Source: a bacterium (GTDB taxonomy: Bacteria > Pseudomonadota > Alphaproteobacteria > Acetobacterales > Acetobacteraceae). Taken from it: 64,000 nt of DNA. A program made the position numbers and the translations under genes. A model generated the notes under the pieces. That model was not told the origin of the DNA. It saw nothing but the letters and a program-made list of their open reading frames with translations, and ran no database searches. The stretch is from the NCBI GenBank assembly GCA_026224825.1, contig JAMFRO010000057.1, positions 62,001 through 126,000 on the forward strand, in the 5' to 3' direction. Shown here piece by piece: positions 8,796 to 64,000 of this stretch (the first letter of the stretch is position 1; every line of letters starts with the position of its first letter).

Positions 8796-9749
8796 TCAGA
8801 CCTGAACCGCGTAATCGGACAGCGGGCCGGCGTGTTTGATGAGCCCGGCTTTGGCCAGGAAATCGCGATAGGCGAGGTAGCGTCCGGCATCCAGCGCCGC
8901 CGGGTCTTTGGCGAAATAGCCCGGCAGAGCGTGCCAGGAGGCGATGTCCAGCTTATCGTTAAGAGTCGGGTTCTCTTTCACGAATTGCGCCAGGATTTTA
9001 TCCGGATCGGCCAGCAGAGCGGCGGTGCCCTCCTTGAGTGCCGCGAGAAACCGCGGCAGCGCCGGGTTTTTCAGGCCCGCGACGGCGGAGAGCAGGATCA
9101 GCTCCTCGGAGGTGGGCACGCCATGGTCCTCGGGGTAGAAAATAACCGGATCGAGCCCGGCCTGGGCGAGCTGGATATCCTCATAGGTGCGGTAGGTGCC
9201 GATGACGGCATCGACCTCCTTGGACTGCAGCGAGGTGACGAGGTTGAAGTTGATGTTGACGAGTTGAACATCGTTCAAACTTAGCCCCACGGATTTGAGC
9301 ATGGTGGCGATTTGCACCGTCTCCATGCCGGCGACGGAATAGCCGATCTTTTTGCCCTTCAGATCGGCGAGGGTTTTAATCCCGCTGGCCTTCAACGCGG
9401 TAAGGGTGTTCAGCGGCTTGTCGATGAGCGTGCCGGTGCGGCGCACGGGCAGGCCGGCATCCGCCAGCAGGTAGAGCTGGGGCTGGTAGCTCAGGGCCGC
9501 ATCGGCCTTGCCGGCGGCGAGCAGGCGCGGCGGCAGATCCGGGTCCGTGGGGGCGATGAGGATGACATCGAGCCCGGCACGGGTGAAGGCGCCGCTGTAT
9601 TTGGCGGCGAATAAAGGCGCGTGGTCCGGGTTGATGAACCAATCCAGAATGACGGTGAACGGCGTTGGCGTGACTGCCAAAGCGGGGGCGGCCAAAGCGG
9701 GTGTGGCCAGAACGGCGGCGGAGGCGGCGATAAAGGAACGGCGCTGCAT
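8796..9749 (-). CDS. thiY: NMT1/THI5-like periplasmic binding protein (ThiY-like)
   Basis: 317-residue substrate-binding protein. A twin-arginine type leader begins MQRRSFIAASAAVLATPALA. The mature protein starts with the NMT1/THI5 pattern TVILDWFINPDHAPLFAAKY and continues with ADAALSYQPQL and KIGYSVAG. The family binds thiamine pyrimidine precursors. Position directly behind a TPP riboswitch supports this assignment over the related sulfonate/taurine binders. First gene of thiYZX. Confidence 0.9.
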   Translation of the reverse strand: MQRRSFIAASAAVLATPALAAPALAVTPTPFTVILDWFINPDHAPLFAAKYSGAFTRAGLDVILIAPTDPDLPPRLLAAGKADAALSYQPQLYLLADAGLPVRRTGTLIDKPLNTLTALKASGIKTLADLKGKKIGYSVAGMETVQIATMLKSVGLSLNDVQLVNINFNLVTSLQSKEVDAVIGTYRTYEDIQLAQAGLDPVIFYPEDHGVPTSEELILLSAVAGLKNPALPRFLAALKEGTAALLADPDKILAQFVKENPTLNDKLDIASWHALPGYFAKDPAALDAGRYLAYRDFLAKAGLIKHAGPLSDYAVQV

Positions 9750-9757
9750 GGTGCAAA

Positions 9758-9830
9758 CTCCCTACGCTGGCATGACCCAGACAGGTTCATCGGGTGTGAT
9801 CTCAGCCCGCAACACGCGGACACCCCGGTA
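9758..9830 (-). promoter_or_regulatory. TPP riboswitch (THI box)
   Basis: On the minus strand, in order: GGGGTGTCC, GGGCTGAGATCACACCC, GATGAACCTG, CTGGGTCATGCCAGCGTAGGGA. These are the conserved THI-box blocks. The element ends in GGGAG (9762-9758), which is also the ribosome site of thiY, 8 nt before its ATG. TPP binding should therefore hide the start site and control translation of thiYZX directly. Confidence 0.95.
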
Positions 9831-9960
9831 GAGCGAGGTTGTTTGCCGAATTGTTCCACTCCGTCAAGCCCGGCTTGGGGTCTCTCATATTGTCAAGCGC
9901 CGCTTGACGGACTGGAAACCGGGAAGGACGATAGAAACCAAGGAAACGGGGAGCGAAACA

Positions 9961-17279: not shown

Positions 17280-18985
17280 CAGAACAGGAAGTAGCGCTGC
17301 GCCATGGGCAGCACTTCAGCCGGCTCGCACACCAGCAACTCGCCATCGGCACGGACTTCGTAGGTCTCGGGGTTCACCTCGATATGCGGCGTGGCGTCAT
17401 TATGGATCATGGATTTCTTGCCGATGCCGCCTCGTGTGTTACTGACGGCGGCGAGCGGGCGGGTAAGGCCGAGGCGTTTGCCGATGCCGTCATCCAGCGC
17501 CGCCTGGGAGACGAAGAGGAGTGAGGATTCGATCAACGCCCGGCCATAGGCGCCGAACATCGGGCGGTAATGCACCGGCTGCGGCGTGGGGATGGAGGCG
17601 TTGGGGTCGCCCATGGCGGCCATGACGATGGAGCCGGATTTCAGCACCAGATCCGGCTTGATGCCGAAGAAGGCGGGGGACCAGAGCACGAGGTCCGCGA
17701 GCTTGCCGGGTGCTATGGAGCCGACATGGGTGGAGAGCCCCTGCGCGATGGCGGGGTTGATGGTGTATTTGGCGATATAGCGTTTGATGCGGGCATTATC
17801 CCCTGCCCCATCGCCCGGCAGCGCGCCACGCTGGATTTTCATTTTATGCGCTGTCTGCCAGGTACGGATGATAACTTCGCCGACACGCCCCATGGCCTGG
17901 CTGTCGGAGGAAAACATCGAGAGTGCACCCAGATCATGCAGAATATCCTCGGCCGCTATGGTCTCCTTGCGGATGCGGGATTCGGCGAAGGCGATGTCCT
18001 CAGGGATGCCGGCATCGAGATGGTGGCAAACCATCAGCATGTCCAGATGCTCATCCAGCGTATTGACCGTATAGGGCCGCGTGGGGTTGGTGGAGCTGGG
18101 CAGCACATTGGGCAGGCCGGCGACGCGGATTATGTCCGGTGCGTGGCCGCCCCCCGCACCTTCGGTGTGGAAGGCGTGGATCGTGCGGCCTTTGAAAGCG
18201 GCAATTGTATCCTCGACAAAACCGGATTCGTTCAGCGTGTCGGAATGCAGCATTACCTGTACATCGAAGCGGTCCGCCACCGATAGGCAGTTGTCGATGG
18301 CAGCCGGTGTCGTGCCCCAATCCTCATGCAGTTTCAGCGACGATGCACCGGCGCGGATCATCTCCTCCAGCGCCGCCGGCTGGCTGGCATTGCCCTTGCC
18401 GGTGAAGGCGAGGTTGACGGGAAACGCCTCCGCCGCCTGCAGCATGCGTGCGAGATGAAACGGCCCCGGCGTGCAGGTGGTGGCGGCGGTGCCGGTGGCC
18501 GGGCCAGTGCCGCCGCCGACCATGGTGGTGATGCCTGAGGCCAGCGCCTCCTCGATCTGCTGCGGGCAGATGAAATGGATGTGCGAATCAATGCCGCCTG
18601 TGGTGAGAATTTTGCCCTCGCCGGCGATGATTTCCGTGCCGGGCCCGATGATGATATCCACCCCCGGCTGCACATCGGGATTTCCGGCCTTGCCAATCCG
18701 CGCGATCCGGCCGCCAATAATCGAAACATCAGCCTTCACGATGCCCCAATGGTCGATGATCAGCGCATTGGTGATGACCGTATCCGCCGCCCCTTGCGCG
18801 TTGGTAAGCTGCGACTGGCCCATGCCATCGCGAATGACCTTGCCGCCGCCGAATTTTACTTCCTCGCCGTATATGGTGAAATCCTTTTCCACCTCGGCAA
18901 AAAGCTCGGTATCGGCCAGGCGCACGCGGTCTCCCACCGTAGGGCCAAACATATCCGCATAAGCGGCGCGGGTGATGCGGGCCAT
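17279..18985 (-). CDS. ureC: Urease alpha subunit UreC
   Basis: 568-residue catalytic subunit that hydrolyses urea to ammonia and carbamate. Nickel and catalytic features: [13 protein letters not shown], the carbamylated Lys in [12 protein letters not shown], His ligands in [13 protein letters not shown] and [16 protein letters not shown], and the flap MVCHHLD. The N-terminus [20 protein letters not shown] is the family signature. It joins ureB end to start (shared base 18985). Confidence 0.97.
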
Positions 18986-32773: not shown

Positions 32774-32866
32774 GGAAGCGATTGAAGTCTGGTGGCTTCC
32801 TTGGTCTTCAAAACCAATGGCCCGCGAATAGCGGGCGGTGGGTTCGATTCCCATCCGCTTCCGCCA
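32774..32866 (+). tRNA. selC: tRNA-Sec (anticodon UCA)
   Basis: 93 nt with encoded CCA. Acceptor GGAAGCG / CGCTTCC, a long D-stem (GAAG...CTTC), anticodon arm TTGGT-CTTCAAA-ACCAA with anticodon TCA, long variable arm CCCGC-GAATA-GCGGG, T-arm with TTCGATT. The TCA anticodon, long variable arm and G73 identify selenocysteine tRNA. It ends 3 nt before the 3' end of the convergent UGSC selenoprotein gene, and the T-run just downstream can terminate it. selA, selB and selD lie within 9 kb. Confidence 0.96.
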
Positions 32867-32869
32867 CTC

Positions 32870-34597
32870 TTATTTTTTCTTGATGCGTTCCTCCCAATCC
32901 GCCGGCAGCACGATTTTCTTGGCTGTGGGAAAGCCGAGATAGCCGTTATGCGCGAAGGTATAGGCGTTGGTGCGCAACGGATCGCCCGAGACCAGCACCA
33001 TGAAGTCATCCTTGTCGAACACGATCGGCACCATGCGTTGCGGATCGTCGGATACCGCGAAGTCCTTCGGCAATTTGCCGAGATTGACCTGATGCTTCAG
33101 CGAGCCGATCGGGAAATCCGCCCATGTTTCCGTATAGGTTTCCACGCGCTCTGCTGTCATGCGCGCATGGTCGTACAGATATTGTTTCACATCATCCTTG
33201 GTCCAGCCTGCGCGCGCGATGGTCTGTGCCAGGATGGGGGTGAGCACGAGTGCGGGGCGTAAAGTGCCATAGGTGATGCCGCCCACCGTAAAGATGATCT
33301 CCCAGCGTGTGCAGGAGGCCACCGCATCGGCGAGATATGGCATGATCTCCTCCGGTGTGCTGCCGGTGACGGAGACGATGACATTGCCGCTGGTCATGCG
33401 CGAGATGGTAACGGTGTTGTCGCCCGTCTCGAACCCCATGTCCGCCGCATTGGACGGCCAGCCGGCGGTGGCCAGCGCGTCCTCGTTTTCCGCCAGCACC
33501 ACACGGAAGGTGTTGCCGAAGCAGCCCTTATCCGTTTTGTGCAAGAGGAAGCCCGCCATATTGCGCAGGCCCAGGCGCCAGAAGCGGCCGATGGCCGTGT
33601 TCGGCTTGAAGCCGTCACGCAGCACGCCCTGCTCGTAGTTAAACTTCAGCTCCTTGATGATGGGGCCATTCAACACGATGAGCGTCTCCGCCCCAGGCGT
33701 ATTGCCGCTGTGTTCCACACCATATCCAGGGTCCACCATGGCTTCCGCCAGAGCGATGAGGATCGGCATGTACTCAGGCTTGCAGCCCGCCATCACGCCA
33801 TTCACAGCGGTGGCCCAGATGGTGACCGCCCGGCTCGCCGGCAGCACCACACCGAGGATCTCGTTGGGGTCGCGCGTGGTGTAGCTCAGGAACTGGTTGA
33901 TCTTCTCGACCGTGGGCGGCACGATGGGCAACCCATCGCTCCACTCGCGCTCGTAGAAATAATCATTCACCTCCTCGAAACTGCCGCTGAACACGATGTC
34001 GCGCGACGCCGGCTCCTCGTCATATTCGATGGTCTCAGGCTGGGTCATCAGATTATCGATCACCTGCTTCGCCGTCACGGCGATGACATGGCCGCGCAAC
34101 TCCTCACTGCTCTGCGCACCGGGATGTCCCATGATCATCGCCAAAGGCAGGTTCGGCATGCCGAGCCCGACGGAAGTCGCGGCGGCTTGTCCCATGAAAC
34201 CCTCGCAGGTTAGAGAAGAGGTCGGATAACCGGCTTTTTCACACGCTTCACTGGCCCGCAGCACGGCGGGCGTACAAGAGCCTCAACAGGCCATGCAGGA
34301 GATGGCGGCGTCGACTCCTAATTCTTTGAACCGTTGCGGCAGAGAGGCGAGCAACTCGCGCTCATTCACGGTGTGCGTGTTGCCGAACTCGCGCCAGCTC
34401 ACCCATTTCATGCCCGGATAGATTTTTTTAATCTCTTCTTCCAGCGTGGCGTAAACCTCGTCGCCCATGAAGAGATAATCCCAGAGCTGGGCAATGGTTT
34501 TACCGTTCAGCGTGTCGAGCCGCTTGGCCAGAGGCTGGATTTTCTGGCGCCGCTCACCGCTGGGCCAGACAACGTCATATTGGGTTTCGCTTGCCAT
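32870..34597 (-). CDS. UGSC-family selenoprotein (in-frame UGA = selenocysteine)
   Basis: One 575-residue protein read through TGA at 34285-34283 (Sec105). Before it: GVDAAISCMAC; after it: GSCTPAVLRASEACEKAG, giving the C-U-G-S-C motif of the UGSC selenoprotein family, with further Cys in TSSLTCEGFMGQ. Both flanking frames are the same frame, and the downstream part has no ribosome site at its first ATG. A SECIS-like hairpin follows the UGA. The later part (DGLPIVPPTVEKINQFL, NSAADMGF-like region, TGSTPEEIMPYL) is well conserved-looking but of unknown function; a redox enzyme is expected. AGGAG lies before ATG 34597. Last gene of a tetR-tauD-trxR-like operon. Confidence 0.9.
34254..34285 (-). 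promoter_or_regulatory. Sec UGA codon with SECIS-like hairpin
   Basis: TGA at 34285-34283. Starting 11 nt later, GCCCGC (34271-34266) pairs with GCGGGC (34259-34254) around the loop CGTGCT. The loop has the G-U that bacterial SelB recognises, and its distance from the UGA is in the normal range. The hairpin is inside the coding sequence, as in bacterial selenoprotein mRNAs. Confidence 0.8.
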
Positions 34598-34609
34598 GAA
34601 GAAATTCTC

Positions 34610-35545
34610 CTAGACTGTAAGCTGATCGACTGTAAGCTGACGGAACGCGGCCTCGGCGGCGCCAACGCCCTCCGCCATGGCCTGAACGATATTACCACCA
34701 TAGCCGGCACGCACGGCACCAGCCGCAAAAATGCGCGGATGGGATGTGGTGAGCCCCTCGCCGGTTTTGATATGGCCCGAGGCCTCAAGCATGGAAGCCG
34801 GCAGAAAGCCGGTATTGGGGGTAACGCCGATGAAGGGAAACAGCCCGGCGCAATCGATATCCGTGCTCTCGCCGGTCTTTACATTGCGCAGGCGCAAACC
34901 CTCAACGCCATTCTCACCGAGAATTTCAGTGATCTCGCTATCCCAGATGAAGGTCACATTATCCCGCGAGGCGATCTTCTCAATATAATCGCGCTTGGCC
35001 TTCAGCGGCCCACGGCAGACCATGATGACGCGCTTGCAGATCTTCGCCAGCACCAAAGCTTCCTCAACCGCCGCATCGCCACTGCCGGTCACCGCGACAT
35101 CCTGCCCACGGAAAAACCCGCCATCGCAAGTGGCGCAGCGCGACACGCCACGCCCGGTAAACTCTTCCTCGCCCGGCACACCGAGTTTTTTCAAGGACGC
35201 ACCGGAGGCGATGATAATCACCTCAGGCTTGTGCACATGGCCTTCGCCATCGGTAATGCGGAGCACGGCACCGGTCTCAATCGTCTCAATGCCCGCCTCG
35301 ATGATCTGCACGGCAGCCTTGCGCGCATCCTCCAGCAGATGGATGGCCAGATCCTGCCCGGAGAATTTGCCCGGGAGCGGCAGGCCATGCACCTCATCCA
35401 CCGTGGCGACGAGCCCGCCGAACATATAGCTGCTCTCAAACAGCGTCACGAGCCGGCCAAGCCGTGCCATATGGCAAGCAGCGGCGAGCCCAGCCAGGCC
35501 GCCGCCGATCACCGCCACTTCACAACTATTGCGCAACGGCCGCAT
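34610..35545 (-). CDS. Thioredoxin-reductase-like flavoprotein
   Basis: 311 residues. FAD motif VIGGGLAGLAAACHMARLG, redox pair in GVSRCATCDGGFF (CxxC), NAD motif VTGSGDAAVEEALVLAKI, C-terminal FAD block IFAAGAVRAGYGG where thioredoxin reductases usually have GD. It ends 12 nt before the UGSC selenoprotein and starts 2 nt after the dioxygenase, so it is the natural electron donor candidate for the selenoprotein. The G-A replacement of the usual GD suggests a specialised paralogue rather than the housekeeping TrxB. Confidence 0.88.
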   Translation of the reverse strand: MRPLRNSCEVAVIGGGLAGLAAACHMARLGRLVTLFESSYMFGGLVATVDEVHGLPLPGKFSGQDLAIHLLEDARKAAVQIIEAGIETIETGAVLRITDGEGHVHKPEVIIIASGASLKKLGVPGEEEFTGRGVSRCATCDGGFFRGQDVAVTGSGDAAVEEALVLAKICKRVIMVCRGPLKAKRDYIEKIASRDNVTFIWDSEITEILGENGVEGLRLRNVKTGESTDIDCAGLFPFIGVTPNTGFLPASMLEASGHIKTGEGLTTSHPRIFAAGAVRAGYGGNIVQAMAEGVGAAEAAFRQLTVDQLTV

Positions 35546-35547
35546 CT

Positions 35548-36396
35548 CTAGTTCGTCGGCTCCAGCCCGGCGATAGAGGTGCGGTGCATGGTACGCCCGC
35601 TATCCGCCGGGTAAGGGATCACGCGGTGCAGCGCGCCGCCATTGTCCCAGATGGCGAGATCGCCCTCTTTCCAGTCATGGCTGTAGCAGAAGCGCGGCTG
35701 TGCCGCCCATTCCAGCAGCCGGGCCAGCAAAGCGCGCCCCTCCGCCTTGGACATGCCGACGATGTAGTCAGCCGAATAGCCGATCATCAGCGATTTGCGG
35801 CCATTCTTGCGCGTCCACACCAGCGGCTGCTCCTGCGCCGCACCGCGCTTCATCGGCTCGAGCTGGTCCGGCGATGCCACCTCGCGCACGGCGGCGACAA
35901 CGCTATGCACCACGCGCAGGTTTTCAATCGCCTTCTTCTCGTCCTCGGGCAAAGCCTCATAGGCGGCATAGGTATTGCTGAACTGCGTCTGCCCGCCGGT
36001 GGGCGAGGTTTTGCGGCTGGACAGCACGGAGGCTTTCGGCACCGGAATGTTGATGGTCGCACCATCCATATGCCAGAAGAAGGTGCCGAGCACATATTCC
36101 GGCTCCGGATTCTTATCCTTGTCCAGCGTGATCTTATACACATCGCGCGTATCGGCATCGCCGCCCGGCACGGTGGTGGTAAAGTTTACCCGGGCACCCA
36201 GAGCATCGGTAAACGCGAGCTGCTCCTTGTCGCTCAGATTGATCTGCGGGAAGATCAGCGCATCATGGATTTCCAGCAGCTCCATGATCCGCTGCGCCAC
36301 GGCCGGCTCAAAGATCGCATTGCGGTCCACATGCACAACGGCGCCGATCTCCGGCTTGATAACGTCCACGCGAACGGTGTCGATATTGATATCCAT
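35548..36396 (-). CDS. TauD/TfdA-family Fe(II)/2-oxoglutarate dioxygenase
   Basis: 282 residues. The iron-binding HxD is in FFWHMDGATI and the distal His in DNGGALHRVIPYPAD, followed by the 2-oxoglutarate Arg region GRTMHRTSIAG. Start ATG 36396 (MDINIDTVRVDVI) has GGGGA about 6 nt before. It is followed directly by the thioredoxin-reductase-like gene. A paralogue lies at 50035. Substrate unknown; neighbours suggest it oxidises a small organic acid or S/Se/N compound whose product the UGSC protein handles, which is speculation. Confidence 0.87.
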   Translation of the reverse strand: MDINIDTVRVDVIKPEIGAVVHVDRNAIFEPAVAQRIMELLEIHDALIFPQINLSDKEQLAFTDALGARVNFTTTVPGGDADTRDVYKITLDKDKNPEPEYVLGTFFWHMDGATINIPVPKASVLSSRKTSPTGGQTQFSNTYAAYEALPEDEKKAIENLRVVHSVVAAVREVASPDQLEPMKRGAAQEQPLVWTRKNGRKSLMIGYSADYIVGMSKAEGRALLARLLEWAAQPRFCYSHDWKEGDLAIWDNGGALHRVIPYPADSGRTMHRTSIAGLEPTN

Positions 36397-36484
36397 GGCG
36401 TTCCCCTTTTTTGCTCCGGCTGGCGCGTTGCGGGCCGGCCCGATTGATGCTGAACAGTTCATTAGCATCACCGCGCGGCAAAGG

Positions 36485-37075
36485 TCAACCTGGTTCTTGA
36501 AACAACTGCAGCGCGTCCTCGACGATGGTGAGCGCTTCCGTATGGCCATCGGTAAGGCCCAGTGCGGATTCGGAGACGATCATACGCGCCAGCGCCACCG
36601 CGATCATCACAATCCCCGCCGCGGCCTTCTGGCTGCCGGCCCGGTGTGCCAGCAGTCCCGACACAGCCTCGATCTGTAAGGCACGAAACTGCTCGGCGGA
36701 GCTGACGATCTCGGCGCGGATGGTTTCGCGATGCGTGGCAATCGCGCTCAGCTCGCTGGCCACGGCCGCACCTGAGGGATCGCTGTTAAGTTGCCACAGG
36801 GCACGCAGGGGCTCAGGCGAGGCCAGCGCCTCCGCGAACCGCGCCATGCGGTTCTCGTTCACACGCCGCACCAGGGCCAGGATCAGGTCATCCATGGTGC
36901 GGAAGTAATAGTACAGGAGCTGCGTCTTAAGCCCGGCCTTCGCCGCCACCTGGCGGGCGGTGAGTGCGGGCAGGCCTTCATCACGCAGCACCGCCTCGGC
37001 CGCGTCTATAAAACGGGCGCGCGTCTGCGAATTCTCCAACCCCAATCTGCGCGTCTGCGCCACTTCTGTATCCAT
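36485..37075 (-). CDS. TetR-family regulator of the UGSC operon
   Basis: 196 residues. N-terminal HTH: SQTRARFIDAAEAVLRDEG, LTARQVAAKAGLKTQLLYYY, FRTMDDLILALVRR. The ligand domain is not recognisable beyond its helices. First gene of the minus-strand run leading to the dioxygenase, flavoprotein and UGSC genes, with 88 nt before the dioxygenase. Likely a local ligand-sensing repressor. Confidence 0.88.
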   Translation of the reverse strand: MDTEVAQTRRLGLENSQTRARFIDAAEAVLRDEGLPALTARQVAAKAGLKTQLLYYYFRTMDDLILALVRRVNENRMARFAEALASPEPLRALWQLNSDPSGAAVASELSAIATHRETIRAEIVSSAEQFRALQIEAVSGLLAHRAGSQKAAAGIVMIAVALARMIVSESALGLTDGHTEALTIVEDALQLFQEPG

Positions 37076-37121
37076 CTCGCACCTCTGGCACCGGACTCCG
37101 GCGCGTTATCCAAACGAACCC

Positions 37122-39026
37122 TTAACCATTTTGCGCCGGGGGCAATAGTGCCGAAACCGCCGCGCTGCCACGGATGCGCCGGTCCGCGATGCGGCGGGTG
37201 AAGCGTATGGCGTCCAGATGGTCCAGCAGCGGCATGGAATATTTGCGCGAGATGCCCAAAGCCGCCCCTACGTCCGTTGCCAGCAGGCCGGGTGCGCGCT
37301 CCAGCAACGGGCTGAGCAGGCGGATGGCGTGCTCCACGGACTCCTGGTGGAAGAGAATTTCCTTGTCTTTTGCGCGGTCTACGGCGCGGACCAACACGCC
37401 TTCACGCAGCAGCCGGTCCACCGCGCGTGAGGCTGCCAGGCTGGTGATGATGCTCTTGGGGTCGGGCGGGGAGAGCCCCGCGGCGCGGAGCTGGGCGGCG
37501 ATCTGGGCGGCCAGCCCGGCTTCATCCTGGGCGCGGGCCTGGTCGGCCTCGGCACGGGGGAGCAGAATTTTACTCCCGCGCCGGGCGATGCTGTTACGCG
37601 CGAGGAGGATCAAAATAGCTTCGTCAAGCACATTTGCGCCGGTGCCGGGCAAGCAAGCCAGCAATTGCACGCTGGTCAGGCCGTCGGCATGCGGGGCGAG
37701 TAGAGGGGGGAGCCGCGCCGCCAGAGCCTGCAAATCCGCTTGGGCGGCCACCAGCCCGGCGCTGGTGACCAACACCGGATGGGGTTTCAGCAATGCGGCG
37801 ATATGGGCGGGGGCCAGAGCGGAGAGTTGCGAGAGATGTGTCAGGCTTGTGCCGGCAGCCCCCTGCGCTTCCACCTCGGCCAGGACCAGCGCTTCGGGCT
37901 CCAGCCGGGAGAGGCGCGAGAGACGCTGCAACAGCGGCGCGGAATGGCGGCGCTGGCGGCGGGTGACGGGCGCGATGATGCGCCCCCCGGCCACGGTCTG
38001 CGCCGGGGAGGCCAGGCGCAGGATTAAAAACTCACGGGCGGGGAAGGCGGCCGCCTCCGCGCAATGCAGTTGGGCAAAACCGGTCTCGCCGGGTTCCAGC
38101 ACATCGCGGTCGAGCAGGCGCAGCCTCGCGTCGAACTCATCCGTGCCGAGCAGCGCGCGCAGGCGCATGCCGTTCTTCAAGGGCGGGGCGCTGGAAACGG
38201 CGCGGAGCGAGATTGTCAGCCAGTCCGAAGGGGTGAGGCCGGGGGCGGCGAGCGCCATGCCACGGTGCAGATCGGCGATGTCGATGTCGCGCAGGTTCAG
38301 AGCCACGCGCTGGCCGGGGGCGGCTGCCTCCACGCGCTGCCCGTGGATCTGCACCGCCCGCACCCGTACCTGTTTGCGGGCGGGGAAAAGCTCAAGCGTG
38401 TCTCCAGCGCTGACAGCAGCGCCGCGCAAGGTGCCGGTGACCACCGGACCATGCCCGGCGATGGAGAAGGCGCGGTCGATGGGCAGGAACGGCAGGCCGA
38501 AGCTGGGGCGGGGTTCCTGGCTGCCGGCCAGGCTGGCGAGGGCATGGCGCAATTCCTCAATGCCCTGCGCGCGCAATGCCGAGGTGAACACCGGCGGCAG
38601 GGGCAAAAAACCGGCTTTTGTGAGCAGCTCCATGGCCTCATCCGCGACCATCTGCGCCTCTTCGGGCGGCACCAGATCGGCCTTGCTTATGGCCACCACG
38701 GCACGGCGCAGGCCGAGCAAGCCGGCGATGTCGATATGCTCGATGGTTTGCGGTTTTATCCCCTCATTGGCGGCCAGCACCAGCAGCACGGCATCAATGC
38801 CGGTGGCCCCGGCGATCATGGTGCGGATAAAACGCTCATGGCCGGGCATGTCGATGAGGTCGATTTCGGCGGTTGGGGTATGCAGCTTGGCGAAGCCCAG
38901 GGCGATGGAGATTCCACGCGCTTTTTCCTCGGCCAGCCGGTCGGTCTCCTCCCCCGTGAGGGCGCGGACCAGCGCGGTCTTACCATGGTCGACATGGCCG
39001 ATGACGCCGACGACCAGGTTTTTCAC
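37122..39026 (-). CDS. selB: Selenocysteine-specific elongation factor SelB
   Basis: 634 residues. GTPase domain with GVIGHVDHGKTALVRAL, DMPGHERFIRTMIAGATG and ISKADL, then two EF-Tu-like barrels (FSIAGHGPVVTGTLRG, the FAQLHCAE region) and four C-terminal winged helices ending in GISRKYSMPLLDHLDAIRFTRR, which bind SECIS RNA. GTG/ATG start overlaps the selA stop by 4 nt. It delivers Sec-tRNA to the UGA in the nearby UGSC gene. Confidence 0.95.
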   Translation of the reverse strand: MKNLVVGVIGHVDHGKTALVRALTGEETDRLAEEKARGISIALGFAKLHTPTAEIDLIDMPGHERFIRTMIAGATGIDAVLLVLAANEGIKPQTIEHIDIAGLLGLRRAVVAISKADLVPPEEAQMVADEAMELLTKAGFLPLPPVFTSALRAQGIEELRHALASLAGSQEPRPSFGLPFLPIDRAFSIAGHGPVVTGTLRGAAVSAGDTLELFPARKQVRVRAVQIHGQRVEAAAPGQRVALNLRDIDIADLHRGMALAAPGLTPSDWLTISLRAVSSAPPLKNGMRLRALLGTDEFDARLRLLDRDVLEPGETGFAQLHCAEAAAFPAREFLILRLASPAQTVAGGRIIAPVTRRQRRHSAPLLQRLSRLSRLEPEALVLAEVEAQGAAGTSLTHLSQLSALAPAHIAALLKPHPVLVTSAGLVAAQADLQALAARLPPLLAPHADGLTSVQLLACLPGTGANVLDEAILILLARNSIARRGSKILLPRAEADQARAQDEAGLAAQIAAQLRAAGLSPPDPKSIITSLAASRAVDRLLREGVLVRAVDRAKDKEILFHQESVEHAIRLLSPLLERAPGLLATDVGAALGISRKYSMPLLDHLDAIRFTRRIADRRIRGSAAVSALLPPAQNG

Positions 39027-40378
39027 CCCAGCGCCGCCTTCAGCGCTTCGGCCAACACGGGAAGTTCGGCATCGGTGACGGCCAGCATGTCGAGCAGCAA
39101 ACGGCCCTCGCTGATACGGCCGATGACGGCGGGGGTTTGCGCGCGCAAGGCGGCGGCCAGATGATCCGCCCCGCCGGGCAGCTTTAGGGCAACGGCCCAG
39201 CTTTCGATCCGCTCCTCAGGCAAAGAGCCGCCACCCGCGAAGGCTTCCGTGCGCTCCAACGCGCCAATGCCGAGGAGGGTGAGCAGAGATTCGGCGCGGC
39301 GTTGTAAGGTGCCGCTGCTCTGCCGCAGCATGGCGTACACAGGCACGCGCTCGGGCGTGTCCCGATGCAGCAGCAACGTCGCTTCCAGGGCGGCGAGGGA
39401 CATTTTATCCAGCCGCACGGCGCGCAGCAGCGGGTGGGTGCGGATGCGGTCGAGGGCGGATTCTTTGCCCAATATGAGCCCGGCCTGCGGGCCGCCTAAA
39501 AGCTTGTCGCCACTGCAGGTGACGAGATCCGCCCCCGCCGCGAGGGCCTGGGACAAGGTTGGTTCGGGGCTTCCCGGGGTTTCATGCAGCAGGCCGCTGC
39601 CGAGATCTGCCACCACCAGCAGGTTTTTGCTCCGGGCAAGCTGGGCAAGTTCCCCGATGGGGGTTTCCGCCGTGAAGCCGATGGTCCGGAAGTTACTCTG
39701 GTGCACTTTCAGCAATACGCGGGTCTCGGGGGTGATGGCGGCGCGGTAATCGGCCAGGCGGGTTTTGTTGGTGGCACCCACCTCCACCAGTTTTGCCCCG
39801 CCCTGGCGGATGACATCGGGCACACGGAAACCGCCGCCGATTTCCACCAGTTCGCCGCGCGAGACGATGACTTCGCCTCCATCGCTGAGCGCGCTCAGGG
39901 CCAGGAGGATGGCGGCGGCACCATTGTTCACGGCCAAAGCGGCTTCGGCGCCGGTCAGTTCGCGGAGCAAATTCTCCAGGGAATGAGTGCGCGAGCCGCG
40001 TTTGCCGGTGGAGAGGTCGAATTCGAGGTTGCAATAGCCGCGCGCGACATCCTCGACGGCTGCGATGGCCTCGGCGGCCAGCGGGGCGCGGCCGAGATTG
40101 GTGTGCAGCACGATGCCGGTGGCGTTAATGGCGCGGCGCAGGCCAAGCCGGCTGCGGAGGGATAATTTTGCGCCGGCACGGGCCAGGAGGGACTGCCTAT
40201 CGGGGATTTCAGTCAGGCTACCGGCGGTGATCTGCGTGCGTAATGCGGCGAGATCGTCACGCAGGACATTGATGAGGCAAGTGCGGCCATATTCCGTGCA
40301 GAGTGCATCGGCTTCGGATGATTCAAGGAGCTTCTGCACCTGCGGCAGGTCGCGGAGCAGGTTTTTGCTCATCGGCAT
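39023..40378 (-). CDS. selA: L-seryl-tRNA(Sec) selenium transferase SelA
   Basis: 451-residue PLP enzyme that converts Ser-tRNA-Sec to Sec-tRNA-Sec. INATGIVLHTNLGRAPLA, YCNLEFDLSTGKRGSRT, AALAVNNGAAAILLAL, and the PLP lysine in TCSGDKLLGGPQAGLI are the family blocks. ATG 40378 is chosen because GGGGAGG lies about 7 nt upstream; ATG 40372 is two codons later. Divergent from selD. Confidence 0.95.
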   Translation of the reverse strand: MPMSKNLLRDLPQVQKLLESSEADALCTEYGRTCLINVLRDDLAALRTQITAGSLTEIPDRQSLLARAGAKLSLRSRLGLRRAINATGIVLHTNLGRAPLAAEAIAAVEDVARGYCNLEFDLSTGKRGSRTHSLENLLRELTGAEAALAVNNGAAAILLALSALSDGGEVIVSRGELVEIGGGFRVPDVIRQGGAKLVEVGATNKTRLADYRAAITPETRVLLKVHQSNFRTIGFTAETPIGELAQLARSKNLLVVADLGSGLLHETPGSPEPTLSQALAAGADLVTCSGDKLLGGPQAGLILGKESALDRIRTHPLLRAVRLDKMSLAALEATLLLHRDTPERVPVYAMLRQSSGTLQRRAESLLTLLGIGALERTEAFAGGGSLPEERIESWAVALKLPGGADHLAAALRAQTPAVIGRISEGRLLLDMLAVTDAELPVLAEALKAALG

Positions 40379-40422
40379 ATATCGGCCTCCCCTACGGCAA
40401 ACTTGTTGGTTCTTTTCGTGTG

Positions 40423-40468
40423 ATGCTAGGGATGCGTACAGCATCCAATGCTAAGGATGCGTACAGCA
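40423..40468. repeat. Tandem direct repeats in the selA-selD promoter region
   Basis: ATGCTAGGGATGCGTACAGCA (20 of 21 bases identical between copies) occurs at 40423-40443 and again at 40448-40468 with G to A at one position, 25 nt apart. It lies between divergent selA and selD, about 30 nt before selD. It looks like a two-site operator or a recent duplication. Confidence 0.6.
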
Positions 40469-40498
40469 AGAGCATAAAACGCCCGGAGGAGCAAAACT

Positions 40499-41557
40499 AT
40501 GGCGGATCAGGACGTCAGGCTGACATCATTAGCGCATGGCGGCGGCTGCGGCTGCAAGCTCTCGCCCGCCGTACTGCGCGAGCTACTGTCCGGCATGCCG
40601 GCGGCGGCGGCGTTTCCGGATCTGCTGGTGGGCATCGAGACCGGGGATGACGCGGCGGTGTACCGGATCAACGATACCCAGGCGGTGGTGGCGACCACGG
40701 ATTTCTTCATGCCGATCGTCGATGACCCGTATGATTTCGGGCGGATCGCGGCGGCGAACGCGCTCTCGGATGTGTATGCCATGGGCGGCAAGCCGATTCT
40801 GGCACTGGCGATTCTGGGCATGCCTTTGGGCAAGATCAGCAATGAGACCGTGCGCGCCATATTGGCGGGCGGCGCCTCGATATGCGCCGAGGCGGGCATC
40901 CCCGTGGCGGGCGGGCACTCCATTGATGCGCCGGAGCCGATTTACGGGCTTGCGGTGATCGGGCTGGTGAACCCGGACCGGGTGCTGCGCAATACCGGGG
41001 CGCAACCAGGCGATGCTCTTATTCTAAGCAAAGGGCTGGGGGTTGGGGTGATCAGCGCGGCGTTGAAAAAGGCCGAGCTGCCGCCGGAACAGGACCGCGC
41101 GCTATACGCGACGCTGGTTGATTCCACGACGCGGCTGAATGCCGTGGGGCATACGCTGGCGGCGATCCCGGAGGTGCATGCGGTGACGGATGTGACCGGG
41201 TTTGGCCTGCTGGGGCATGGATTAGAAATGTGCCGGGGCTCGGGGCTGACGGCGCGGATAAAATTTGCCGATCTGCCGTTGCTGGAGGGCGTGGCCGCGT
41301 TGGCGCAGGTGCCCTACCGCACCGGGGCAGCGGTGCGGAACTGGGAGAGCTATGGCCATGAGGTGGTGCTGGGCGCTGCCGTGCAAGAGTGGCAGCGCGA
41401 TGTGCTGGCGGACCCGCAAACCAGCGGCGGGCTGCTTATTGCCGTGGCGCCGGCGGGGGTTGAGGCGGTTCTGGCGCAATTGCGCGATGCTGGTTTTGCA
41501 GCCGCGGCGGTCGTCGGCGGCATGGAAGAGGGACCGCCGCAAATGCACGTTAGCTGA
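40499..41557 (+). CDS. selD: Selenophosphate synthase SelD
   Basis: 352 residues; makes selenophosphate from selenide and ATP. The glycine-rich loop HGGGCGCK places Cys17, Cys19 and Lys20 exactly as in E. coli SelD, so it is the Cys rather than the Sec form. Further blocks: [87 protein letters not shown] precedes the ATG. Its 3' end overlaps the convergent esterase by 8 nt. Confidence 0.96.
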
Positions 41558-62639: not shown

Positions 62640-64000
62640 ATGCCATCTAAACGCAGCGTACCAGGCGTAAAACCTTATAATAGCGCCGCCGGCGGCTGGG
62701 GGGCGTTGCGGGCCACGGCCATTGCCGTGCGCGAGCAGATGGAGCTGAGCGAGGCGCCGCTGCTGCTGTACCGGACCAATAAGCCGGCGGGGTTCGACTG
62801 CCCGGGCTGCGCCTGGCCGGATAAGGCACATACATCGACCTTTCAGTTTTGCGAGAATGGCGCCAAGGCGGTGACCTGGGAGGCGACCAAGAAGCGGGTG
62901 ACGCCGGAATTTTTTGGCCGCCATACGGTGGCGGAGCTGCTGGGCTGGACGGACCATGATCTGGAGGACGAGGGGCGGCTGACGCACCCCATGGCCTATG
63001 ATGCAGCCAGCGACACTTACCAGCCGGTGGAATGGGATGAGGCGTTTGCGCGGATAGGGGCGGTGCTGCGCGCGCTCCCCAGTGCGAATGCGGCGGAATT
63101 TTATACCTCGGGCCGGGCCTCCAATGAGGCGGCGTTTTTATACCAGTTGTTTGCGCGGGAATATGGGACCAATAATTTTCCCGATTGCTCGAACATGTGC
63201 CATGAGGCAACCAGTCAGGGACTGCCGAAATCCATCGGGATTGGCAAAGGCACTGTGTCTCTCGATGATTTTGACCATTGCGAGATGATCATCGCGATTG
63301 GGCATAATCCGGGGACCAACCATCCGCGCATGATGGGGACGCTGCATGAGGTGTCCAGGCGGGGGGTACCGATTATCGTGTTCAACCCGCTGAAGGAGCG
63401 GGCGCTGGAGCGGTTTACCGACCCGCAGAACCCCGTGGAGATGGCGAGCATGGGCTCGACGCCGATTGCTTCGTCCTACTACCAGGTGAAGGTGGGCGGG
63501 GATGCGGCGGCGCTGAAGGGGATATGTAAGGCGCTGCTGGCGCTGAATGCGCTGGACCATGGGTTTATCGCTGAGCATACCAATGGGTTTGCGGCATTTG
63601 CGGCGGATCTGGCGGCGACGGGTTGGGCGGAGATTGAGGCGGCCAGCGGGCTGGGCCGGGCCGCACTTGAGAGTGTTGCGGCGGCTTACGCGAAGTCCAA
63701 TGCCACCATCGTGAGCTATGGCATGGGGGTGACGCAACACAGCAAGGGCACGGCGACGGTGCAGCAGATTGCAAACCTGCTGCTGCTGCGCGGGAATTTC
63801 GGGAAACCGGGGGCGGGGATTTGCCCCCTGCGCGGGCATTCCAATGTGCAGGGCGACCGTACAGTGGGGATTAACGAGAAGCCGGGCGATGCGCTGCTGG
63901 AGGGGATTGAGAAGCGCTTTGGCTTTGCCCCGCCCCGGGCGCATGGGCATGATGCGGTGGCGGCGATGCAGGCGATTGTGGCGGGAGAATCCAAGGTGCT
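62640..64000 (+). CDS. FdhF/YdeP-like molybdopterin oxidoreductase, 5' part (cut by window end)
   Basis: At least 453 residues. N-terminal FDCPGCAWPDKAHTS and ENGAKAVTWEATKK are typical of the FdhF/YdeP group. Further on: EWDEAFARIGAVLRAL, FYTSGRASNEAAFLYQLF, NNFPDCSNMCHEATSQGL (Mo-ligand region with Cys, not Sec), IIAIGHNPGTNHPRMM, and NLLLLRGNFGKPGAGICPLRGHSNVQGDR. YdeP-type proteins are formate-dehydrogenase-like but of uncertain substrate. GGAGG precedes the ATG. Not a selenoprotein in the visible part. Confidence 0.9.
   Translation, partial: MPSKRSVPGVKPYNSAAGGWGALRATAIAVREQMELSEAPLLLYRTNKPAGFDCPGCAWPDKAHTSTFQFCENGAKAVTWEATKKRVTPEFFGRHTVAELLGWTDHDLEDEGRLTHPMAYDAASDTYQPVEWDEAFARIGAVLRALPSANAAEFYTSGRASNEAAFLYQLFAREYGTNNFPDCSNMCHEATSQGLPKSIGIGKGTVSLDDFDHCEMIIAIGHNPGTNHPRMMGTLHEVSRRGVPIIVFNPLKERALERFTDPQNPVEMASMGSTPIASSYYQVKVGGDAAALKGICKALLALNALDHGFIAEHTNGFAAFAADLAATGWAEIEAASGLGRAALESVAAAYAKSNATIVSYGMGVTQHSKGTATVQQIANLLLLRGNFGKPGAGICPLRGHSNVQGDRTVGINEKPGDALLEGIEKRFGFAPPRAHGHDAVAAMQAIVAGESKV

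Follow-up and report, generated by a model that had tools for sequence, protein, structure and literature searches.

A UGSC-family selenoprotein read through an in-frame TGA in an Acetobacteraceae genus, and its proposed role as a flavoprotein-fed reductase

The subject of this report is a gene for a predicted selenoprotein of the UGSC family, encoded on the reverse strand of a 64,000-nucleotide stretch of an Acetobacteraceae contig (JAMFRO010000057.1, GenBank assembly GCA_026224825.1), which is called the window throughout. An open reading frame (ORF) of 104 residues (34597–34283, minus strand) ends in ...SCMAC followed by TGA and is in phase with the frame that occupies 34282–32870; with TGA read as selenocysteine (Sec), the two give a single protein of 575 residues that carries the motif C104-U105-G-S-C108. 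A ribosome-binding-site-like stretch, GGAGAA (34610–34605), precedes the gene and overlaps the stop codon of an upstream flavoprotein gene. The gene and its parts, which include a selenocysteine insertion sequence (SECIS)-type hairpin, are:

32870..34597, minus strand: UGSC/partner-domain fused selenoprotein gene; 575 residues, Sec at 105, ATG at 34597
34049..34576, minus strand: UGSC domain (Pfam PF24696), residues 8–183; a profile match, and a distant homologue of the PrdB/GrdB Sec domain
34283..34285, minus strand: in-frame TGA, read as Sec105, with C108 as the C of the UGSC motif; from the reading frame and the alignment of homologues
34254..34271, minus strand: SECIS-type hairpin GCCCGC-CGUGCU-GCGGGC with GU in the apical loop; begins 12 nt past the TGA
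32873..34009, minus strand: partner ("C") domain, residues ~197–575; unnamed in Pfam and NCBIfam, without a confident fold match in the PDB
33782..33784, minus strand: Cys272 of an NGVMAGC motif; Cys in 88 of 91 rows of alignment A2 and 54 of 57 rows of alignment A4

An earlier note, made from the sequence alone, had joined two same-frame ORFs through the TGA at 34285–34283 and placed the 575-residue product in the UGSC family. Its coordinates and phase proved accurate, and so did the family: PF24696 runs across the TGA with 87.9 bits (cut-off 25), and either half of the split gene, scanned alone, matches its own portion of the profile. The protein does not reach the cut-off of the NCBIfam equivalog NF041046 (UGSC_fam; 33.9 vs 125 bits). 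The gene is a new member of the UGSC family and not a new family, because both the family and a UGSC fusion were in print in 2008 (PMC2398784).

The TGA is kept in three same-genus orthologues, i.e., in all four genus members when the window is included. In comparisons with these orthologues, the ratio of nonsynonymous to synonymous substitution rates (dN/dS) is ~0.09–0.11 upstream of the TGA and 0.11–0.13 downstream, with dN of 0.09–0.12 and 0.10–0.11, respectively, and dS of 0.79–1.35; near-equal dN with high dS on both sides implies that selection is about equally strict before and after the TGA. The apical loop of the hairpin is centred 20–21 nt past the TGA in 129 of 144 Sec homologues. 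In these homologues, the 45 nt past the TGA fold at a mean of -19.1 kcal/mol, as compared to -12.1 for 1334 segments taken elsewhere in the same genes, and the mean z against mononucleotide shuffles is -1.46 after the TGA vs -0.20 elsewhere. The hairpin registers of two subfamilies, TPAV and TSW, lie one base apart. In the TPAV class (94 segments), 94% of pairs form, 0.941 vs 0.931 in shuffles, and the stem is near-invariant, so that covariation says little; in the TSW class (45 segments), 84% of pairs form vs 77% in shuffles, a value reached by none of 1000 shuffles when kinship is ignored. Taken alone, the window hairpin does not exceed shuffles of its own GC-rich sequence in stability (z -0.03), which speaks against stability as proof for the window gene by itself.

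Replacement of the Sec codon by a Cys codon provides a further line of evidence. A contig scan with an alignment of fused homologues gave at least 579 confirmed stretches; the best 80 loci hold 118 UGSC-domain places, with redundancy kept, and 106 of these have TGA at the Sec codon. Two of the 12 non-TGA places are fragments that miss the site, and two others (L127 650 and L150) have TGC in the motif. Four (L165, L168, L169 and L170) have Cys in CG[IL]C in a domain without TGA; they come from metagenome-assembled genomes (MAGs) of Bacillota, Prevotellaceae and Porphyromonadaceae, and their N-termini look signal-peptide-like by eye, so these proteins are perhaps exported. L154 3497 has CGC and lacks the second Cys. 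The remaining three (L127 5226–6890, L146 8185–9903 and 18285–20012) are fused UGSC/partner proteins that lack both the U/C residues of the motif; lying beside Sec paralogues, they are possibly non-redox paralogues. Across the 91 rows of alignment A2, the Sec position is conserved in 88 and C108 in 87; U105, C108, D221, N266, C272, P274, R338 and E370 are each conserved in 86–91 rows.

Plasmids carry both forms. Among the five records examined, out of 24 with a match, Natrinema, Haloterrigena and Variovorax SRS16 have Cys versions (TGC), and Acidovorax T1 and Paracoccus have TGA; the Natrinema (L227) and Haloterrigena (L228) genes are haloarchaeal Cys versions. The check proposed in the earlier note, that Cys homologues should align Cys with U105, holds for L127 650, L150, Natrinema, Haloterrigena and Variovorax SRS16, in all of which the frame continues past the site. 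The mis-annotation that it foresaw also exists: on plasmid p2-T1 of Acidovorax sp. T1, typed as conjugative IncP, a 96-residue "hypothetical protein" (L226 8640–8930) terminates on the Sec TGA, and the PLSDB gene table, self-described as incomplete, lists no coding sequence past it. At least one public annotation therefore cuts a UGSC gene at its Sec codon. This UGSC gene lies ~5.7 kb from an IS1071 transposase gene. In viral contigs, none of 32 pattern stretches was confirmed, so no phage link is seen.

By these sequence comparisons, the window gene encodes one conserved read-through protein with a Sec codon and a hairpin: the read-through that the earlier note thought very likely agrees with the conserved TGA, purifying selection on both sides, the position of the hairpin and the TGA/Cys exchange.

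The other two thirds of the protein are a near-constant feature of these loci. UGSC and the partner domain are fused or adjacent in 39 of 40 loci, a set chosen in part with the whole protein; the exception is a remnant in a genome of the same genus (G014, below). Sequence data thus indicate a near-constant UGSC-partner pairing. A stand-alone second copy of the partner domain (C2, ~340–410 residues) follows soon after the fused gene in L055–L058, L060–L062, L102, L103, L107, L152 and others; there is none in the window or in its close kin L091 and L114 (21.7 kb). The AlphaFold2 model has a mean predicted local distance difference test (pLDDT) score of 95.3 for the whole protein and 92.4 for the partner domain, and the whole-protein model is a repeated β/α fold with Sec placed between a strand and the following helix. 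A Foldseek search of the PDB with the whole-protein and partner-domain models gave no match under E 0.001, and the 50 matches listed for the whole model, out of 1382 weak ones, include no thioredoxin. Class I fumarases, the two-subunit archaeal enzyme among them, top both lists (E 0.0026 for the whole protein, 0.0058 for the partner domain), with TM-scores of ~0.15–0.28 and root-mean-square deviations of 13–20; these matches are treated as unproven, and the models make a remote relation of the partner domain to class I fumarases possible. A PDB sequence search with the window protein found no match, and the five weak PDB matches of the profile (best Hsp104, E 0.0034) were taken as chance. A coupling of C272 to Sec was also considered and is weak: TGA-containing L154 10296 and L161 3483 carry Gly at this position.

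Profile comparison reveals a distant homology between the UGSC domain and the Sec domains of PrdB and GrdB, the selenoproteins of D-proline and glycine reductase, with Sec on Sec. When 47 proteins, 42 of which have the UGSC domain, were scanned singly at E up to 10, the PrdB model (TIGR04483) was matched by 24 (best 4.6e-5; window protein 0.042), GrdB by 12 (best 8.6e-5), GrdH by 12 and GrdF by 11. In profile–profile alignments with HHalign, for which the GrdB and PrdB rows came mostly from genomes of another order, the UGSC profile matched GrdB at 95.3% over 105 columns; nine PrdB-like rows, of which the UGSC-rich MAGs G354 and G355 contributed three, at 96.0% over 96 columns; and a mixed set of these nine and the C-terminal parts of 23 GrdB rows at 97.2% over 122 columns. 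CGSC fell on CGTC in every PrdB/GrdB alignment. As controls, eight unrelated neighbourhood families gave at most 2.2%, PrdA 0.2% and GrdE 20.3%. No statement of this kinship turned up in the titles and texts reached by a literature search, though it may be known to someone.

The third recurrent element lies immediately upstream of the selenoprotein gene; two further genes separate it from selB:

34610..35545, minus strand: thioredoxin reductase (TrxR)-like flavoprotein with CATC at residues 137–140; proposed electron donor
35548..36549, minus strand: TauD/TfdA-type dioxygenase between the flavoprotein and selB in this genus; retained in G014
36485..37075, minus strand: TetR-type regulator; retained in G014

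One TrxR-like flavoprotein homology cluster is present in 32 of 116 loci (L055–L170, not made independent): 16 members lie within 300 bp of a UGSC gene, 15 of them on its strand; 11 stand behind partner genes in the same run and five are farther away. CxxC is found in all 33 flavoproteins, the window's included, and GxGxxG in 32, the one without it being L066, which is cut at its start. In Haloterrigena (L228), UGSC with Cys, the partner and a TrxR-like flavoprotein stand in a row, followed by a mycofactocin-coupled dehydrogenase. Gene order thus points to a flavoprotein that recurs near UGSC genes. The dioxygenase and the regulator are probably not part of the enzyme, since G014 retains both at a locus devoid of the Sec genes. 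The neighbouring genes encode, among others, tripartite tricarboxylate receptors, a TRAP transporter, family-5 solute-binding proteins, MmgE/PrpD, coenzyme A (CoA)-transferases, acyl-CoA ligases and amidohydrolases, and catabolism of small organic acids is likely.

The apparatus that would decode the TGA flanks the gene on both sides:

32774..32862, plus strand: tRNA-Sec gene, convergent, 7 bp from the selenoprotein stop codon by Rfam borders; Rfam 78.5 bits, ARAGORN anticodon tca
37122..39026, minus strand: selB; TIGR00475, 301.9 bits, cut-off 242.25
39023..40444, minus strand: selA; TIGR00474, 518.2 bits, cut-off 267.9
40499..41557, plus strand: selD, without in-frame TGA; TIGR00476, 422.7 bits, cut-off 125

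The complete Sec machinery that the earlier note had placed within 9 kb is thus present: selA, selB, selD and tRNA-Sec lie in 32774–41557 (8.8 kb). Within the genus, SelA and tRNA-Sec follow the enzyme. The full-length UGSC fusion occurs in four of 38 genomes (G000, G018, G021 and G033), SelA in exactly these four; they alone have a tRNA-Sec match of 78.5 bits, the other 34 reaching at most 51.5 bits, and in each of the four the tRNA-Sec gene sits next to the UGSC gene, at its 3' end. The SelA/UGSC coincidence over 38 genomes has a probability of 1.4e-5 if relatedness is ignored. A fifth genome, G014, has a 138-residue UGSC remnant (G014:C128, L054 954–1370, minus strand) in which the TGA is still there, and no SelA match. 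The 9 kb examined there keep the short-chain dehydrogenase/reductase (SDR), TauD, TetR and α/β hydrolase genes and have no match to the flavoprotein, selB, selA or selD; this pattern suggests that the Sec trait was lost recently. In the search for a second selenoprotein of the window's genome among FdhA-like genes, to which it was confined, none of six matches had an internal stop. One formate-dehydrogenase-alpha-like frame, also without in-frame stop and below the TIGR01591 cut-off, runs off the end of the window (62964–64000, plus strand; contig 124964–126880). Two RNA elements were also seen in the window: Rfam RF02514 (5' ureB small RNA) at 18547–18836 (plus strand, 101.2 bits, cut-off 40) and a thiamine pyrophosphate riboswitch match at 9742–9837 (minus strand), 1.4 bits over the gathering score.

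By these gene inventories, UGSC, SelA and tRNA-Sec co-occur in the genus, a clean case in which an expansion of the genetic code is tied to one known client, as SelA and tRNA-Sec are found only in genus members with one enzyme. The coupling is not strict in the wider set: of 11 genomes with a match to the fused protein, nine have SelA and two do not, namely G014 with its remnant and G070, which is 77% complete and has TGA-containing UGSC genes yet no SelA match. Conversely, nine of 18 genomes with SelA above the cut-off have no match to the window protein, so Sec has other clients outside the genus. Some lineages, e.g., the window's genus, may retain the entire Sec decoding apparatus mainly to serve the UGSC enzyme. 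In a tree, the fused protein clusters with those of a gammaproteobacterium, Steroidobacter (77% identity), and an acidobacterial MAG (73%) with support of 100/100, and the flavoprotein mirrors this grouping (72% and 67% identity; the next among the loci listed has 46%). Horizontal transfer as a block is, from these trees and identities, likely but unproven.

The family reaches its largest size in a groundwater Chloroflexi MAG (NC_groundwater_644, 5.0 Mb, JACPQD contigs; G355, the genome of L133, with loci L126, L133 and L233–L272). It holds at least 150 UGSC matches; at least 146 have TGA and four do not, and 20 lie on one 350-kb contig. In 515 kb of this MAG there are 123 UGSC places, 119 of them with TGA followed by GxC (one place is counted twice in overlapping stretches). 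For 121 of the 123, a partner domain is encoded on the same strand at a distance of up to 2.5 kb; none of these 121 partner domains has an in-frame TGA, an argument against TGA having been reassigned generally. The hairpin loop is at 20–21 nt in 88 of the 119 TGA places. Identity to the nearest paralogue has a median of 69% and is at least 90% in only four of 120 (the double count included); at such low identity, mixed strains do not explain the copy number. SelA is present; no tRNA-Sec was found in the 17 kb around it, and no genome-wide search for one was made. Among the 11 genomes searched, this MAG included, a betaproteobacterial MAG has 58 UGSC matches, four others 25–31 and the remaining five 1–7, with a single match in the named strain Steroidobacter agaridevorans; two of the 11 UGSC genomes searched (MAGs G477 and G348) have no SelA match though TGA-containing copies are present, again counter to strict coupling. 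The largest bacterial selenoproteome found in print, as given in the accessible part of the source, numbers 63 and belongs to a Methylomirabilota MAG (PMC13188914); the at least 146 TGA-containing UGSC genes of the Chloroflexi MAG are over twice that. No comparable UGSC expansion is reported in the titles and abstracts found by a literature search.

The earlier note had left the reaction unknown; it can be narrowed by the PrdB/GrdB homology, the near-constant partner domain and the recurrent flavoprotein. On balance, we favour a fused two-domain, flavoprotein-fed Sec reductase that cleaves an activated C-X bond by PrdB-like chemistry. The UGSC domain would supply a nucleophilic Sec (U105) and a resolving Cys (C108), its UGSC motif corresponding to UGTC of PrdB and GrdB. 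The partner domain would stand where D-proline and glycine reductase have their pyruvoyl partner (PrdA/GrdE); its probable task is to bind and activate a small organic substrate, with a carboxylate or CoA ester as the likely candidate. The selenolate would attack the activated substrate carbon and displace the leaving group, i.e., cleave the C-X bond reductively; C108 would then free the product, leaving an Se-S bond that the TrxR-like flavoprotein encoded just upstream would reduce at the expense of NAD(P)H, perhaps with no separate thioredoxin in between. The scheme has published parallels, here taken from the accessible portion of one source: in the D-proline reductase proposal, the PrdB Sec attacks the α carbon, the PrdB Cys cleaves the selenoether and the resulting Se-S bond is reduced, and glycine reductase draws its electrons from NADPH via thioredoxin reductase and thioredoxin (PMC3091704). 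The direction of the chemistry, the direct electron path and the nature of the substrate are what we infer.

Several observations weigh against such a reductase. The PrdB kinship is remote: the window protein scores 13.3 bits against the TIGR04483 cut-off of 300 and is, by that cut-off, not a PrdB. The partner domain compares with PrdA at 1.8% and with GrdE at 0.1% (HHalign, on shallow profiles of 3 and 18 distinct sequences), so an identity with GrdE/PrdA is not supported, nor is substrate activation through a pyruvoyl group. A flavoprotein of the cluster is missing from 84 of the 116 loci, some of which are cut by contig ends. The window flavoprotein is below the TrxR equivalog cut-off (TIGR01292; 236.8 vs 343.45) and is for this reason called TrxR-like and not TrxR; of five such flavoproteins scanned with NCBIfam, four, the window's included, fall under that cut-off and the Variovorax SRS16 neighbour passes it. 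The gene neighbourhood is catabolic but varied and points to no single substrate. Finally, a literature search, within the texts it reached, found no biochemistry of any UGSC member.

Three other readings have been weighed. The UGSC protein could be a general thiol/selenol oxidoreductase or peroxidase of redox defence that the flavoprotein merely keeps reduced, as its UxxC motif and TrxR-like neighbour might lead one to expect; a Trx-like fold has been suggested for the family (PMC2398784, in its accessible part), and a paper on peroxidase activity of GrdB exists, its title being cited in the accessible part of PMC3091704. The model instead presents a repeated β/α fold with Sec between strand and helix in a PrdB/GrdB homologue, thioredoxins are absent from the Foldseek matches listed (50 of 1382 weak ones), and ~150 diverged copies in one MAG, many of them near transport or catabolic genes, better fit substrate-specific enzymes; we regard redox defence as unlikely. 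A non-redox role, in which Sec serves as nucleophile or ligand in an isomerase/racemase-, hydrolase- or dehalogenase-like reaction and the flavoprotein only repairs accidental oxidation, would account for the three members that keep the domain without either U/C of the motif and for the many loci without the flavoprotein cluster. It fits poorly with a C108 nearly as conserved as the Sec position (87 vs 88 of 91), as expected of a redox pair, with the PrdB/GrdB homology and with the TrxR-like flavoprotein found beside the gene in a haloarchaeon as well as in the window's lineage, and it seems rather improbable.

The last reading takes the TGA as a real stop, with two separate proteins or a decaying gene on either side. 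Nothing beyond the standard code would be needed, the window hairpin alone is not unusually stable, and a truly decayed copy does exist in G014. Purifying selection of similar strength on both sides of a TGA kept in four of four species, the TGA/Cys exchange at the same codon, the conserved position of the hairpin and the restriction of tRNA-Sec and SelA in the genus to genomes with the full-length gene leave this reading next to no credibility.

A broader extension of the favoured reductase is worth stating, tentatively and without expecting it to hold in full: UGSC, partner and TrxR-like flavoprotein may form one more, so far uncharacterised, class of reductive C-X lyases that depend on Sec, beside glycine and D-proline reductase, catabolic in many non-Stickland bacteria and radiated into possibly the largest selenoprotein family in one genome. 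In either form, the PrdB/GrdB kinship, the partner domain and the flavoprotein make UGSC a concrete, testable enzyme system.

In the accessible part of the 2008 ocean survey that describes the family (PMC2398784), UGSC is among the five most numerous selenoprotein families, represented by 255 sequences with Sec and 21 with Cys; a "likely Trx-like fold" is given for it, as is a fusion named UGSC/Unknown_1. No reaction assigned to UGSC was found there, and the family is listed separately from PrdB both in that survey and in the seen part of PMC13188914. The published family (PF24696) resembles the window gene in having Sec in UGSC and in being fused to an unnamed domain that carries a conserved Cys; Unknown_1 may correspond to the window's C domain. 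The near-universal partner gene, the flavoprotein, the PrdB/GrdB kinship and the genus-level Sec module were not found in the same portion of the survey. What is added here is this kinship, the near-constant partner domain, the recurrent flavoprotein, the genus-level Sec co-occurrence and the Chloroflexi expansion.

Among characterised systems, the closest is D-proline reductase, whose PrdB (TIGR04483) has a homologous Sec domain that 24 of the 47 members match weakly, with UGSC falling on UGTC. It differs in that the window protein is far under the family cut-off and has no PrdA-like partner, and in its electron source, PrdC for PrdB vs the proposed TrxR-like flavoprotein for the window enzyme. 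GrdB, GrdF and GrdH, the selenoprotein B components of glycine, sarcosine and betaine reductases, share the homologous C-terminal Sec domain; a TrxR-looking ORF was seen by eye at the 3' side of GrdB in L208. GrdE of glycine reductase is unrelated to the window partner domain by profile comparison. A GrdB-like fluoroacetate operon of Cloacibacillus, as described in the accessible part of its source, links GrdB-type proteins to cleavage of C-F, a bond other than C-N; it has different subunits and was assigned by transcriptomics and comparative genomics and not with purified enzyme (PMC10838667). By analogy, it suggests that chemistry of this kind can reach bonds beyond C-N.

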